A stretch of 64,000 bases of DNA from contig WBUQ01000002.1 of NCBI GenBank assembly GCA_008933635.1, positions 1-64,000 of the forward strand, in the 5' to 3' direction. Source of the stretch: Desulfobulbaceae bacterium. Its GTDB lineage: Bacteria > Desulfobacterota > Desulfobulbia > Desulfobulbales > Desulfocapsaceae. Shown here in pieces: positions 19,739-26,628 of this stretch (positions are counted from its first letter, which is position 1; every line of letters begins with the position of its first letter). The translations under genes and the position numbers were made by a program. The notes beneath the pieces were generated by a model. The model saw only the letters and a program-made list of their open reading frames with translations, did no database searches and had not been told where the DNA came from.

Positions 19739-21025
19739 TCAGCTGATCTCGCCATCCGGGAACAGCGATTCGCCGTCCCTGATCTCCGACCGGGAAAAGG
19801 AATCCTGCCGGCAGTAGGAGTTGACGATGCAGTTGCGTCCGACCCTGACGCCCGCCGGCATCTCGACCCCCTTGCCTACCAGGGAAATACCGGTGTAAAG
19901 ATGTTTGGGGTGCTGCCGGTTGACTACCGCATCGTTCTCTCCGACACCGACTGCCGATCCGGCCCCAATCTGGACGTTTTTATCAAAGATTGTCAGGTCG
20001 ACGGTGGCGCCTGCCTTTACCCGGCAGTCGGCAAAGAGGATCGAGTTCCGGACGACCGCCCCCTTTTCGACCACCACGCCCGGTGAAAGCACCGAATTAA
20101 TGACTGTTCCGCGGATATCGCAGCCAGCGGAAATGAGGGAATTCCGCACCTGCGAAGCGCTGCCGAAGCGAACCGGCGGCCGGTCCGCCAGGCGCTCCTC
20201 GGTCTCGACATTGGTCCTGATCCGCCATTTCTCCGGCGAAATGCCGCTCTCCTTCCGGATAATGTCCATATTGGCTTCCCAGTAGGCCTGGATCGTCCCG
20301 ACATCGCGCCAGTATCCGTAGAAAGGGTACGCGAAGGTGTTATCGTGGATGATGGCGTGGGGAAGGATATGCATGCCGAAATCGGCTTCGTTCTTGTCGC
20401 GGGCAAGGGAGTCGAGCAGATACTGGCGGTCGAAGACGTAGATCCCCATCGAGGCGAGGTTGGTGCGGGGATCCTTCGGCTTTTCCTCCCAGTCGATGAT
20501 CCGGTTGCGGTTATCGGTGATCCCGGCCCCGAACTGATGTATCTGACTCTTCGGCACCACCATCATCGCCACCGTCACGTCGGCCTTCTTGGAGCGGTGA
20601 TACTCGATCATCGCATCAAAATCCATGTGGTAGATATGGTCGCCGGAGAGGATCACCACCTCGTCGGTGGGATTGGACTGGATGAAATCGATGTTGCGGC
20701 GGACTGCATCCGCCGTCCCCTTGTACCAGTCCGAGTCCTTCGACCCGGTCCTGGGCGGCAGGATCTTCACCCCGCGGGTCCTGCCGGTCAGATCCCAGGC
20801 CTCGCCGGAACCGAGGTGGCTCATCAGGGACAGGGGCTTGTACTGGGTCAGCACGCCGACCTTTTTCAGACCGGAGTTGACCACGTTGCTCAGGCTGAAA
20901 TCGATGATCCGGTAGATGCCGCCAAAGGGCACCGCCGGCTTGGCCCGGTTCTGCACCAGGATGTTGAGACGGCTGCCGACACCGCCAGCCAGCAGGAGGA
21001 CGAGAGCTTCCTTGATCGCAATCAT
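19739..21025 (-). CDS. glgC: Glucose-1-phosphate adenylyltransferase (ADP-glucose pyrophosphorylase)
   Basis: 428 residues. It makes ADP-glucose from ATP and glucose-1-phosphate for glycogen synthesis. The nucleotidyltransferase signature LLLAGGVGSRLNIL...RAKPAVPFGG is present, with ILSGDHIYHMDFDAM (catalytic Asp) and DWEEKPKDP (sugar-phosphate-binding region), followed by a left-handed beta-helix (hexapeptide-like repeats, about 300-410). Leu replaces the usual Thr after the GSRL region (family L.PLTxxRAKP; here NILVQNRAKP). GGGGAGGTG precedes ATG 21025, which overlaps the stop of the paralogue by 4 bases (ATGA). Confidence 0.92.
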   Translation of the reverse strand: MIAIKEALVLLLAGGVGSRLNILVQNRAKPAVPFGGIYRIIDFSLSNVVNSGLKKVGVLTQYKPLSLMSHLGSGEAWDLTGRTRGVKILPPRTGSKDSDWYKGTADAVRRNIDFIQSNPTDEVVILSGDHIYHMDFDAMIEYHRSKKADVTVAMMVVPKSQIHQFGAGITDNRNRIIDWEEKPKDPRTNLASMGIYVFDRQYLLDSLARDKNEADFGMHILPHAIIHDNTFAYPFYGYWRDVGTIQAYWEANMDIIRKESGISPEKWRIRTNVETEERLADRPPVRFGSASQVRNSLISAGCDIRGTVINSVLSPGVVVEKGAVVRNSILFADCRVKAGATVDLTIFDKNVQIGAGSAVGVGENDAVVNRQHPKHLYTGISLVGKGVEMPAGVRVGRNCIVNSYCRQDSFSRSEIRDGESLFPDGEIS

Positions 21026-22275
21026 CGCAGCACCTCCCCGGCGGCAACCACCTTTTTCCACTGCCCGTTCCGCAGCAGTGGATAGATTGTCGCCCCTTCG
21101 CCGATGACCGCCTGGTCCGGCACGAAGTTGTTCCAGCCGATCACGGTGACCTGCCGGCTCTGCCCGCCGGCCTCGATGCCGGCAATCACACCTTCCCCGA
21201 AGGTGTTGTTGACATCGGCGACCACCTTGTTCAACCGGCAGTTGCGCCCGATATGGTTATTGAAGAAGAGGACCGAATCCTCGATGACCGCCCCCTTCTC
21301 GACAATAACTCCGGGAAAGACGATCGACCTCCTGACCGTGCCCTCGATGATGCTGCCGTTGTAAACCAGGCTGTCATGGATCGTCGCCCCGTCGCCGATC
21401 ACCACCGGTTGGAAATCACGGATGCCGCGATGATCCAGGTTGGTGCGCAGCCCCCATTTCTCCATGTCGATGAGCGGGTTCTCACCCAGCAGGTCCATGT
21501 TCGACTGCCAGTACTCCTCGACCGTCCTGGTATATCCCCAGTAGCCGCAGAACTTGTAGGCAAAGACGCGGCCCCCGGCCTTCATCAGCCTCGGTATGAT
21601 ATCCCGGCCGAACTCGAAAGAGGCATCCTCCTGGTTTTCGTTGAGGAGACGGTACATCACCTCCGGCTTGAAGCAGAGTACCGTCAGCGAAGCCCAGTCC
21701 GCCTGCGGCTCGACCGGCTTCTCCCAGTAACCCGTGACCTTGCCTCCCCGTTCCCCGTCCTCATCGTCAACGGCGGCGATGCCGAACCTGTGGGCCTTTT
21801 CGGGTCTGACCCGGATCACCCCCATGGTCAAGTCGGCGTCCTTTTCACGATGGTAGGCGATCATGTGCTGGTAATCCATCTTGTAGATATGGTCACCGGA
21901 AAGGATGAGCACCTGCTCGGGATCGTAATACTGGACGAAATCCAGGTTCCTGAATACCGCGTCGGCCGAACCGCGGTACCAGTCCTTCTGGTCGGAGCCG
22001 ATATAGGGGGGAAGGATGGAGATGCCGCGGTAGCGGCCAAGCATATCCCAGGCGGCACCGGTGCCGATATGGTTGATCAGGGAATAGCTGCGGTACTGAC
22101 TGAGGATGGCGATCCGCTCGATTCCGGAATTCATCAGGTTGCTGAGGGCAAAATCGATGACCCGGCCAAATCCGCCGAAGGGCAAGGCCGATTTCGGACG
22201 ATAATAGGTCAGGACATTCAGTTCATCGACCCGGCCTCCCGCCAGGATCATGGCAAGTGTCGTCGGTTTCAGCAT
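21022..22275 (-). CDS. ADP-glucose pyrophosphorylase paralogue with altered nucleotide loop
   Basis: 417 residues, homologous throughout to the downstream GlgC. The catalytic-site segment ILSGDHIYKMDYQHM and a beta-helix C-terminus are kept. The N-terminal loop reads ILAGGRVDELNVLTYYRPKS in place of AGGxGSRLxxLTxxRAKP: the Gly-Ser-Arg that contacts ATP phosphates is missing. It may be a regulatory subunit, as in GlgD-type or plant heteromeric enzymes, or a nucleotidyltransferase of different specificity. It is translationally coupled upstream of the canonical copy, fitting a heteromer. Confidence 0.85.
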   Translation of the reverse strand: MLKPTTLAMILAGGRVDELNVLTYYRPKSALPFGGFGRVIDFALSNLMNSGIERIAILSQYRSYSLINHIGTGAAWDMLGRYRGISILPPYIGSDQKDWYRGSADAVFRNLDFVQYYDPEQVLILSGDHIYKMDYQHMIAYHREKDADLTMGVIRVRPEKAHRFGIAAVDDEDGERGGKVTGYWEKPVEPQADWASLTVLCFKPEVMYRLLNENQEDASFEFGRDIIPRLMKAGGRVFAYKFCGYWGYTRTVEEYWQSNMDLLGENPLIDMEKWGLRTNLDHRGIRDFQPVVIGDGATIHDSLVYNGSIIEGTVRRSIVFPGVIVEKGAVIEDSVLFFNNHIGRNCRLNKVVADVNNTFGEGVIAGIEAGGQSRQVTVIGWNNFVPDQAVIGEGATIYPLLRNGQWKKVVAAGEVLR

Positions 22276-24111: not shown

Positions 24112-25200
24112 TTGAAGTTGCTCGACCGCTATCTCCTTGGTCAATTCATCCGGTATTTCTTTACCGTCAATGTTGGCTTCGTCGCCATCTACCTGCTGGT
24201 TGATTTTTTCGAGAAGATCGACAATTTTTCCAGAGCCGGAAAGCCCTTTCTCCTGGCGATGAAGTTCTTCCTGCTCAATATCCCCTTCATCATTGATCAG
24301 ATCGGGCCGGTGCTGGTGCTCCTCTCCGGTGTCATCACCCTCGGCATTCTCAACCACACCAGGGAGCTCAACGCGCTGAAGGCCGGCGGTATTCCGCTGA
24401 AAACCATCATCATGCCACTGGTCATCGGCGGATTCTGTCTGACCCTGCTCTTCCTCGCCGCGGCTCAGTTCCTGCTGCCGAAGACCATATCGGCAACCAA
24501 CAATATCTGGTATGAGCAGATCAAGGGCAAGGTGCCGCTCGGCATCCACCGCAACGGACGGTATTACTACAAGGGCAAGGAAGGCTTTTATTCCTTCGAG
24601 TGGCCGCACACCGGCAGATACACCTTCAAAAATTTCTCCTACTCCTGCTGGGACGACAAATACAATATCCGCACCCTGATCAGCGCCGAATGGGCCGACT
24701 GGAGCGAAAAGCGCAAGGAGTGGATCGTGAAGGAAGGGCAGATTCAGGTCGCCAATGAAGACGGGACCTACAAGGTCAGGAACTTCAAGTATTGGCAGAT
24801 CGCCCTGCCCGAGCATCCCGAAAGCTTCCTTGTCCCCGAATACCAGTCGGCGGAGCTGTCGCTGACCGGACTGTTCCTTGATATCTTCAAGAAGGAATCC
24901 AGCCATGAGAAGCAGCGGGCATGGGCCGAGTTCTTCAGCCGCGTCTCCTATATCTTCCTCGGGTTTCCCCTGCTCCTGCTCGGGATGCCGATTCTACTGA
25001 TATCCTATCAAAAATGGGGCCGTGATCTGTCGATTGCCATCCCTGCCAGCTGCGGTCTGGCCTTCATCGCCTGGGGCGCGTGGGGGGCTCTCCAGTCCCT
25101 GGCCAGGGCTGACTACATCCCGCCGTTTTTCGCCGCCATCGTCATCCACATCATCTTTGCCGGTCTCGGTATTTATCTCCTGAGGAGGCAGGATCAGTGA
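24112..25200 (+). CDS. lptG: LPS export permease of the LptF/LptG (YjgP/YjgQ) family
   Basis: 362 residues: three N-terminal membrane segments, a periplasmic beta-jellyroll domain (about 125-270) and three C-terminal membrane segments, the LptF/LptG architecture. The start MKLLDRYLLGQFIRYF and HTRELNALKAGG are family hallmarks. LptF and LptG with LptB extract lipopolysaccharide from the inner membrane; no partner gene adjoins. LptG is favoured over LptF but not proven. The start is TTG 24112 behind AAGGAGCC. Its stop overlaps the next gene. Confidence 0.85.
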   Translation: MKLLDRYLLGQFIRYFFTVNVGFVAIYLLVDFFEKIDNFSRAGKPFLLAMKFFLLNIPFIIDQIGPVLVLLSGVITLGILNHTRELNALKAGGIPLKTIIMPLVIGGFCLTLLFLAAAQFLLPKTISATNNIWYEQIKGKVPLGIHRNGRYYYKGKEGFYSFEWPHTGRYTFKNFSYSCWDDKYNIRTLISAEWADWSEKRKEWIVKEGQIQVANEDGTYKVRNFKYWQIALPEHPESFLVPEYQSAELSLTGLFLDIFKKESSHEKQRAWAEFFSRVSYIFLGFPLLLLGMPILLISYQKWGRDLSIAIPASCGLAFIAWGAWGALQSLARADYIPPFFAAIVIHIIFAGLGIYLLRRQDQ

Positions 25201-25967
25201 AGATGGGAGACAGGATAGCCCCGGCACGGGTCGGCATCGTCGGTATCCCGCCGCTCGCCGTCATCCGCATGCTCGAAAAGGAAGGGGTCCGGATCTACGA
25301 CCTCGATGAGCCGATCGTCAGAAAGGATATCGAGACGGCCTCGCCTTTCCTGCCCCGGGTCTACTGCGCAATTCTGCGAACCGTCGTGGTCAATGCCCTG
25401 TCCCTCAACCTGGAACGGATCTACATCGACGTCGGCCCGGGCAAATGCGATTGCGCCCTGCACACGGCGACGATCCTTGCCGATATCCTGCCCGGCACCA
25501 CGGTCATACCGACCAGGAACCAGGATGCCGTTGACTTCGGAACTCCCCTGTGCCGGACCAGGTTGCCGCTGCTCGAGCGCATGCTGGCCATCACCGCCTC
25601 GGTACGGAGCACCCGCCCGCATGCCGATCATCCACCGTGCCTGCCCACTGCTGGCTTCTGGGGTGTGCCGCCACGGGATTTCTCCCTGCTGTCCCTTTTC
25701 CCGGACAGCACCCATATCTATGGCTGGACCCGCTGCATGGAGAACAAGACGCCGGACAACAAGTCCCTCGAAGAGCATTTCAACCCCGAGGTTCCGACAG
25801 TCTTCTTCGCCCAGTCCTTCTGCGCCAAGACGGCGCTGGCCCAGCATCTGGCCGGCCGCCACCCGCGAGGACTGTACCTCGACTGTGACGTCACCGTCGG
25901 CAACAGCGCCAAGGCCAAGATCCAGGCCTTTCTCGAACTGTCGGGGGTGCGCTGTGCTCATCGCTGA
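25197..25967 (+). CDS. Unknown protein with internal duplication, partner of HgdC-like ATPase
   Basis: 256 residues, function not recognised. Two halves look related: GIVGIPPLAVIRML...VRIYDLDEP then LERIYIDVGPGKCD in the first, and GFWGVPPRDFSLLS...HIYGWTRC then RGLYLDCDVTVGN in the second. Each has a G-x-PP turn, an IY strand and a D-containing strand end, suggesting a duplicated alpha/beta unit. Seven cysteines include C-D-C in the first half. The GTG at 25197 overlaps the lptG stop and follows AGGAGG; ATG 25203 is an alternative. A distant link to HgdB/BcrC-type subunits is possible, since HgdC-like activases act on those. Confidence 0.7.
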   Translation: MKMGDRIAPARVGIVGIPPLAVIRMLEKEGVRIYDLDEPIVRKDIETASPFLPRVYCAILRTVVVNALSLNLERIYIDVGPGKCDCALHTATILADILPGTTVIPTRNQDAVDFGTPLCRTRLPLLERMLAITASVRSTRPHADHPPCLPTAGFWGVPPRDFSLLSLFPDSTHIYGWTRCMENKTPDNKSLEEHFNPEVPTVFFAQSFCAKTALAQHLAGRHPRGLYLDCDVTVGNSAKAKIQAFLELSGVRCAHR

Positions 25968-26628
25968 TTTCGGCACCTCATATGTCAAGCTGCTCGACAC
26001 CGCACAGGAGGGCTCGGGACCACGGATAATCGCCACCCGGGACTTCGATCGCAGTTGGCGGGTGGATATCGCCACCGGCCATAACGGCAGAAACTACGCA
26101 GACTACTACGTGAATGAATTGACTGCACTGGCCCGGGGCGGAGAGCGGTTGATCCGCGAAGACAGCTACACCCTGCTCGACTGCGGCAGCCGGGACATCA
26201 AATTCGTCCGCTACGAACACGGCCAGGTCAAGGACATGGGCTGGAACGCCGAGTGCGGCGCCTCGATGGGCTTCACCATCGAACTGCTGGAGAAATACTA
26301 CGATCTCGACTTCTCGAGCCTCGCCGTGCCGCCCTCCTCGTTTTCGGTGACCTGCGGCGTCCTCGGCATGAGCCATATCTTTGATGCCGTGATCAACGGA
26401 CAGAGCGAATCGGAGGCGGTTGCCCGGTTCGTCAAGGGTATCGCCCTGAATGCCTTCAACTTTGCCGGTAAACCTGAAAGGCTCTATCTTTCCGGCGGAC
26501 TCTGCGCCAACCCTCTCTTCATCCGCTCTTTCCCCTGTACCCTGCTGCCGCTCGGCCGGTTCGTCCTGCTTGAAGGATTGAAGGCCTCGCTTGCCATTAT
26601 CGGTGAACGCGGTGATCGGGATTTCTGA
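25954..26628 (+). CDS. HgdC/BadF-type (acyl-CoA dehydratase activase-like) ATPase
   Basis: 224 residues with the ASKHA ATPase elements of the 2-hydroxyacyl-CoA dehydratase activator family: LIADFGTSYVKLLD (phosphate 1; family ADxGSTTxK), LLDCGSRDIKFV (family DIGGQDxK), ECGASMGFTIEL (family CAAGTGxFLE), TCGVLGMSHI (second cysteine) and LSGGLCANP (adenosine motif). Both cysteine positions that bridge the homodimer 4Fe-4S cluster in HgdC appear kept. The start is GTG 25954 behind GGGGGTG, overlapping the previous gene by 14 bases. It is shorter and more divergent than true activators and no dehydratase gene is nearby. Confidence 0.78.
   Translation: MLIADFGTSYVKLLDTAQEGSGPRIIATRDFDRSWRVDIATGHNGRNYADYYVNELTALARGGERLIREDSYTLLDCGSRDIKFVRYEHGQVKDMGWNAECGASMGFTIELLEKYYDLDFSSLAVPPSSFSVTCGVLGMSHIFDAVINGQSESEAVARFVKGIALNAFNFAGKPERLYLSGGLCANPLFIRSFPCTLLPLGRFVLLEGLKASLAIIGERGDRDF

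Follow-up and report, generated by a model that had tools for sequence, protein, structure and literature searches.

The window analysed here, a stretch of 64,000 nucleotides from a Desulfobulbaceae genome, contains three overlapping open reading frames on its forward strand. These are an lptG-like LPS-export permease gene (24112-25200), a gene for a 256-residue protein, hereafter the partner (25197-25967), and a gene for a short ASKHA ATPase of 224 residues (25954-26628). The stop-to-start overlap of the three genes, described in an earlier reading made without database searches (the sequence-only reading), was confirmed, with overlaps of 4 and 14 nucleotides. The first gene of the operon matches PF03739 with an E-value of 3.2e-61, and in NCBIfam its product scores higher for LptG than for LptF, yet below the cut-off. 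The second LptF/G gene of the genome sits on a different contig. The lptG-like gene is probably a neighbour that lies outside the module formed by the partner and the ATPase.

On the reverse strand, positions 19739-22275 hold two ADP-glucose-pyrophosphorylase-like genes in tandem (440 and 417 residues); many related loci likewise have genes of this kind upstream of lptG. The drop in G+C content from about 0.60 to 0.44-0.48 at positions 40000-64000 of the window reflects a block of ribosomal-protein, EF-G, EF-Tu and RNA-polymerase genes and not a foreign island. Near the pair, neither aromatic-degradation genes nor a fermentation gene context were found.

The ATPase of the pair

The ATPase matches TIGR00241 with an E-value of 3e-8 and 33.4 bits, short of the cut-off of 125.4, and PF01869 with a score of 13.6, short of the cut-off of 31.5. 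When searched against the PDB as a single sequence, it matches 1hux, 4eht and 7yyl at about 1e-7, and the corresponding profile search returned 7yyl_E at 1.4e-9 and 1hux at 4e-9. Foldseek comparison of the ATPase model placed 7yyl_E (DCCP-R) on top with a TM-score of 0.74, followed by the Mbd and HAD activators.

The sequence-only reading had described the ATPase as HgdC-like, with both cluster cysteines retained, and this description held up. Cys101 (26254-26256, +) and Cys134 (26353-26355, +) align with the NDKC and STC cysteines of HgdC, respectively, and both are invariant in 62 homologues; they are the predicted ligands of a dimer-bridging [4Fe-4S] cluster. The ASKHA motifs DFGTSxxK, DCGSRDxK and SGGLxxN are likewise invariant among the homologues, the fixed residues being D5-G7-T8-S9-K12, D76..D81-K83 and S180-G181-G182-L183-N186. 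In a phylogenetic tree, the ATPases of the pair group as one clade with 100/100 support, set apart from 29 true activases by a very long branch. Sequence and predicted fold mark the ATPase as a putative, divergent activator of the HgdC/DCCP-R type.

Predicted fold and cluster site of the partner

As a single sequence, the partner has no match in Pfam, NCBIfam or the PDB. A profile built from 27 homologues retrieved one PDB match only, the β subunit of 2-hydroxyisocaproyl-CoA dehydratase (HadC), with a weak E-value of 0.27 that changed to 0.17 once more diverse sequences had been added. This match consists of two collinear stretches, an N-terminal LPxxxCxI...GxCD and a C-terminal LYxxxD...AkxkIqxFxE. 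In Pfam, HGD-D (PF06050) was matched by more partner members than any other family (5 of 26, best E-value 0.031), with none of the 26 above the gathering threshold. For calibration, the search set combined 24 true HGD-D proteins with 1,480 further reading frames. The partner profile ranked true HGD-D proteins at positions 1-9 of about 1,500 (AUC 0.94), and the reverse search gave an AUC of 0.93. An hhalign comparison of the partner with HGD-D yielded an E-value of 0.09 and a probability of 0.6%, obtained from a shallow alignment of low diversity (Neff 2.3). Overall, the sequence similarity between the partner and HGD-D stays under every curated threshold.

Four cysteines of the partner, Cys57 (25365-25367, +), Cys84 (25446-25448, +), Cys180 (25734-25736, +) and Cys209 (25821-25823, +), are invariant in the homologues, including a lineage with 40% identity (family f53). 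The CxC highlighted in the sequence-only reading did not prove to be a conserved motif, as its second cysteine, Cys86, is a serine, alanine or glycine in many homologues. In the alignments, Cys57 coincides with the conserved LPRxxC cysteine of HGD-D and Cys84 with its conserved (T)CD cysteine, the latter within (T/G)xCD. An in-frame TGA in three homologues was considered as a sign of a selenoprotein and dismissed, since these are ordinary C-terminal stop codons that overlap the start of the ATPase gene.

An AlphaFold2 model of the partner, computed from 66 sequences, reached a pLDDT of 87.6 and a pTM of 0.84 and predicts two four-stranded α/β domains (4+4 strands). A check for an HgdB/BcrC-like fold had been proposed for the partner, and its outcome was positive: in Foldseek searches of the PDB with this model, MbdN, DCCP and BzdNO were the only proteins to reach a probability of 1.00. 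The top matches were 9gai_B, 9g87_B, 7yyl_D and 8s02, with E-values from 1.6e-5 to 1e-3 and query TM-scores of 0.56-0.59; the TM-scores stay at about 0.58 because the helical domain is missing from the partner. The internal duplication proposed earlier is visible in the GIPP/GVPP turns and the IYID/LYLD strands, but it amounts to the presence of two α/β domains, which is a trait of the BCR/HAD family.

In BzdNO, a three-helix domain, which forms the CoA channel, connects the two four-stranded α/β domains (PMC11971306). This CoA-channel domain is absent from the model of the 256-residue partner, where two helices (116-120 and 125-137) lie between the domains, compared with three helices and 72 residues in BzdN. 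Cys36, Cys73, Cys100, Cys263, Cys293 and Cys327 of BzdN are the ligands of its [8Fe-9S] cluster, and Cys95, Cys128 and Cys380 of BzdO bind a [4Fe-4S] cluster (PMC11971306). In the partner model, helices begin just past Cys57 (58-69), Cys84 (85-97) and Cys209 (212-221), the last of these cysteines being preceded by a strand (201-206), and these helix starts resemble the BzdN helices 74:85, 103:113 and 327-343. From this we infer that Cys57, Cys84 and Cys209 would be the equivalents of the proximal-cubane ligands Cys73, Cys100 and Cys327 of BzdN, the first two by alignment and the third by topology. Judged by order and secondary-structure topology, Cys180 may take the place of BzdN Cys263, a distal ligand of the double cubane. 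BzdN Cys36 and Cys293 have no counterpart among the four invariant cysteines of the partner. A DCCP-like double cubane was ruled out for the partner, with two of the six ligands missing.

Because predicted fold, profile ranking and cysteine ladder agree, the partner was assigned to the BCR/HAD/DCCP superfamily, of which it appears to be a pared-down, very distant member. The earlier statement that neither a dehydratase nor a benzoyl-CoA reductase lies nearby needs revision in this respect, as the partner itself would be a remote and reduced relative of these enzymes. A skeptic might hold that the partner merely resembles them as an α/β protein and that the ATPase is non-redox, pointing to the marginal sequence E-values and to the α/β-hydrolase structures that also appear in the Foldseek list. 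These hydrolases, however, reach TM-scores of only about 0.24 at low probability, leaving BCR and DCCP proteins alone at 1.00. Moreover, three independent lines, namely the profile search of the PDB, the Pfam matches and the rank tests, lead to the same superfamily, and the adjoining gene encodes the superfamily's own type of activator. We consider it very improbable that the partner is no BCR/HAD relative.

Distribution and genomic context of the pair

Named relatives place the window in the class Desulfobulbia, beside Desulfoprunum. Of 58 close relatives, 40 carry the partner, at 58-83% identity and far above chance, and across the class it occurs in 194 of 258 genomes (120 of 149 good genomes; 54 of 69 genera), the carriers including the cable bacterium Candidatus Electronema aureum (L105). 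The pair is near-core in Desulfobulbia. Outside the class, the partner was seen in two families only, f31 and f53, within a phylum sample of 395 genomes; the full-sensitivity search covered this one phylum, and other phyla were scanned with short peptide patterns.

The proposal that the ATPase has a dedicated partner is borne out by co-occurrence. All 40 partner-positive relatives and none of the 18 partner-negative ones carry the ATPase, and the pair therefore forms an obligate unit. Both genes are present at 79 of 80 named loci, the lone exception ending at a contig end. Elsewhere in the genome, a separate conventional HGD-D protein (a frame of about 388 residues) adjoins a conventional activase (G000 contig C131, 218909-220840; L171, L228), and the mini pair thus exists alongside it as a further system. 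PADLOC returned no defence-system match for the pair, and no plasmid or viral relatives were found that would link it to mobile elements.

At 74 of the 80 named loci lptG lies immediately upstream of the pair, and most of the exceptions end at contig ends. The reported order of lptG, partner and ATPase genes is thus conserved in the class, whereas the linkage to lptG is absent in f31 and f53. The f31 pair directly precedes genes that read, on sequence inspection, as lysS-lolC-lolD-bamA-lpxD-fabZ, and lptG is located on another contig. The f53 pair has no lptG beside it and is found among metallo-β-lactamase-fold genes, possibly a different functional context. In at least five genera, several of which belong to the family of the window, lptG occupies the same site and the pair is absent; in the loci of this family lptG is followed either directly by an FKBP gene or by a DUF362 gene and then FKBP. 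LPS export can therefore do without the pair and, given that f31 and f53 retain the pair with no adjacent lptG, the pair in turn does not depend on lptG next to it. In sum, the pair does not behave as an LPS-export (Lpt) component, which would be conserved and required together with lptG.

Several other genes were observed around the pair. In f53, a GloB/ETHE1-like metallo-β-lactamase-fold gene is situated 3' of the pair in four of four loci (L144-L147; L145:147-782, 2222-2971), and another gene of this fold precedes the pair in three of the four. In one Desulfobulbaceae MAG (L069:6786-9662), two glycosyltransferase genes, one of family 2 and one of the PMT type, lie between the partner and ATPase genes. 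A DUF362 gene (PF04015, about 280 residues) is often the fourth gene of the operon, after the ATPase (L069:10386-11186; G016, G020, G028 and others), and is found directly behind lptG in some genomes where the pair is missing. Pfam groups DUF362 in one clan with the lactate racemase family (PMC11770544). That DUF362 is a mutually exclusive replacement of the pair was ruled out, as 19 of the 40 pair-positive genomes have it (one copy being a fragment), and so do 11 of the 18 pair-negative ones.

The sequence-only reading had tied the pair to envelope biogenesis. The pair could accordingly be a redox enzyme for an LPS or envelope-lipid substrate, operonic with lptG because the product is exported or modified there. 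The usual lptG neighbour within the class, the envelope genes next to the f31 pair and the glycosyltransferase genes inserted in one genome are in line with this, but the f53 pair without lptG, the remote lptG of f31 and the genera that hold lptG without the pair argue in the other direction. The recurrent envelope neighbours sustain the idea without demonstrating it, and a tie that comes from gene order alone is only suggestive. We regard an envelope substrate as rather unlikely.

Comparison with known reductases and proposed mechanism

ATP-driven Fe/S two-component reductases carry out biology's most demanding reductions. To our knowledge, CoA thioesters are the substrates of all characterised examples for which a substrate has been established. 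Like the pair, DCCP/DCCP-R (PDB 6eno, 7yyl) is encoded by two genes, one for a catalytic-type subunit and one for an ASKHA Fe/S ATPase; the closest structural match to the ATPase is DCCP-R, and DCCP ranks in the partner's top three. DCCP, however, comprises about 420 residues with six cysteines for an [8Fe-9S] cluster and an intermediate helical domain, whereas the partner has 256 residues, three predicted proximal-cubane positions plus one distal position, and no such domain. We know of no physiological role for DCCP so far.

Class I benzoyl-CoA reductases (BzdNOPQ, MbdONPQ) share with the pair the two α/β domains, the positions of cluster cysteines and an ATP-coupled electron activator (PMC11971306). 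They consist of four different subunits and form a CoA channel from the helical domain, in contrast to the two proteins of the pair, which has no CoA domain. The 2-hydroxyacyl-CoA dehydratases (HgdABC, HadBCI) also use an activator with a bridging cluster, as predicted for the pair. Compared with these enzymes, the pair lacks the second subunit and the CoA-binding part, and it scores below the HGD-D and activase cut-offs. The MCR activation complex was dropped as a candidate relative, as its paper mentions no dehydratase or benzoyl-CoA reductase.

We think it likely that the pair works as a two-component reductase of the BCR/HAD/DCCP type in minimal form, driven by ATP and acting at low potential. 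This interpretation builds on the computed fold class of both proteins, on the invariant cysteines and ATP motifs and on the obligatory pairing, together with a partner that lacks the CoA-binding helical domain and the full ligand set of a double cubane. For cluster type, oligomeric state and direction of electron flow we infer the following scheme. A homodimer of the ATPase would hold one inter-subunit [4Fe-4S] cluster, ligated by Cys101 and Cys134 of each chain, and would accept one electron from ferredoxin or flavodoxin. ATP hydrolysis would then push this electron, at very low potential, onto the single cubane of the partner, itself probably a homodimer. This [4Fe-4S] (or [4Fe-5S]) cluster on Cys57, Cys84 and Cys209 may have an open site at one iron or have it closed by Cys180, and would reduce or radicalise a small or non-CoA substrate. 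Since the partner has no CoA domain, its substrate is probably not a CoA thioester, and a non-CoA substrate is the most likely one.

The function of the pair could instead be sulfur transfer or the activation of another enzyme. The superfamily includes TudS, a 4-thio-UMP desulfidase that, like the partner, is a reduced member with one cluster, here a [4Fe-5S] (PMC11971306). By a TudS-like mechanism, an open [4Fe-4S] cluster of the partner would bind sulfide to give [4Fe-5S] and remove or transfer sulfur, with the ATPase re-reducing the cluster. The hosts are sulfur-metabolising bacteria, and the lost CoA binding resembles TudS. TudS as described in PMC11971306, however, is a single-domain protein with no dedicated ATPase, whereas the partner has both α/β domains and kept its ASKHA ATPase in every case, and such a sulfur chemistry appears quite unlikely.

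Alternatively, the pair might feed low-potential electrons to another metalloenzyme for its activation or repair, comparable to the reductive activators of corrinoid proteins. In the predicted partner, the cleft that the helical domain usually occupies is left open and could dock a protein, the pair contains neither a CoA domain nor another recognisable substrate domain, and a DUF362 gene lies 3' of it in many genomes. As no consistently co-occurring client enzyme was found and DUF362 is present with and without the pair, we likewise hold such a role to be improbable.

Going beyond the minimal reductase, which remains our preferred interpretation, one might picture a new subfamily of ATP-driven radical or Birch-type reductases that has lost CoA binding, is core to Desulfobulbia with its cable bacteria and acts on an envelope lipid, a sugar or another non-CoA substrate. 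We put this forward as speculative and, in its full extent, unlikely. Were the substrate indeed an envelope component, the pair would be the first ATP-driven reductase of this kind tied to outer-membrane biogenesis.

The present analysis corrects the annotation of the partner family, which currently has no Pfam or NCBIfam model. With 224 and 256 residues, the compact pair suits the study of ATP-coupled electron activation. A smaller, obligate pair without a CoA domain, carried by most of a class, suggests that widespread anaerobes carry out a reaction so far unrecognised.
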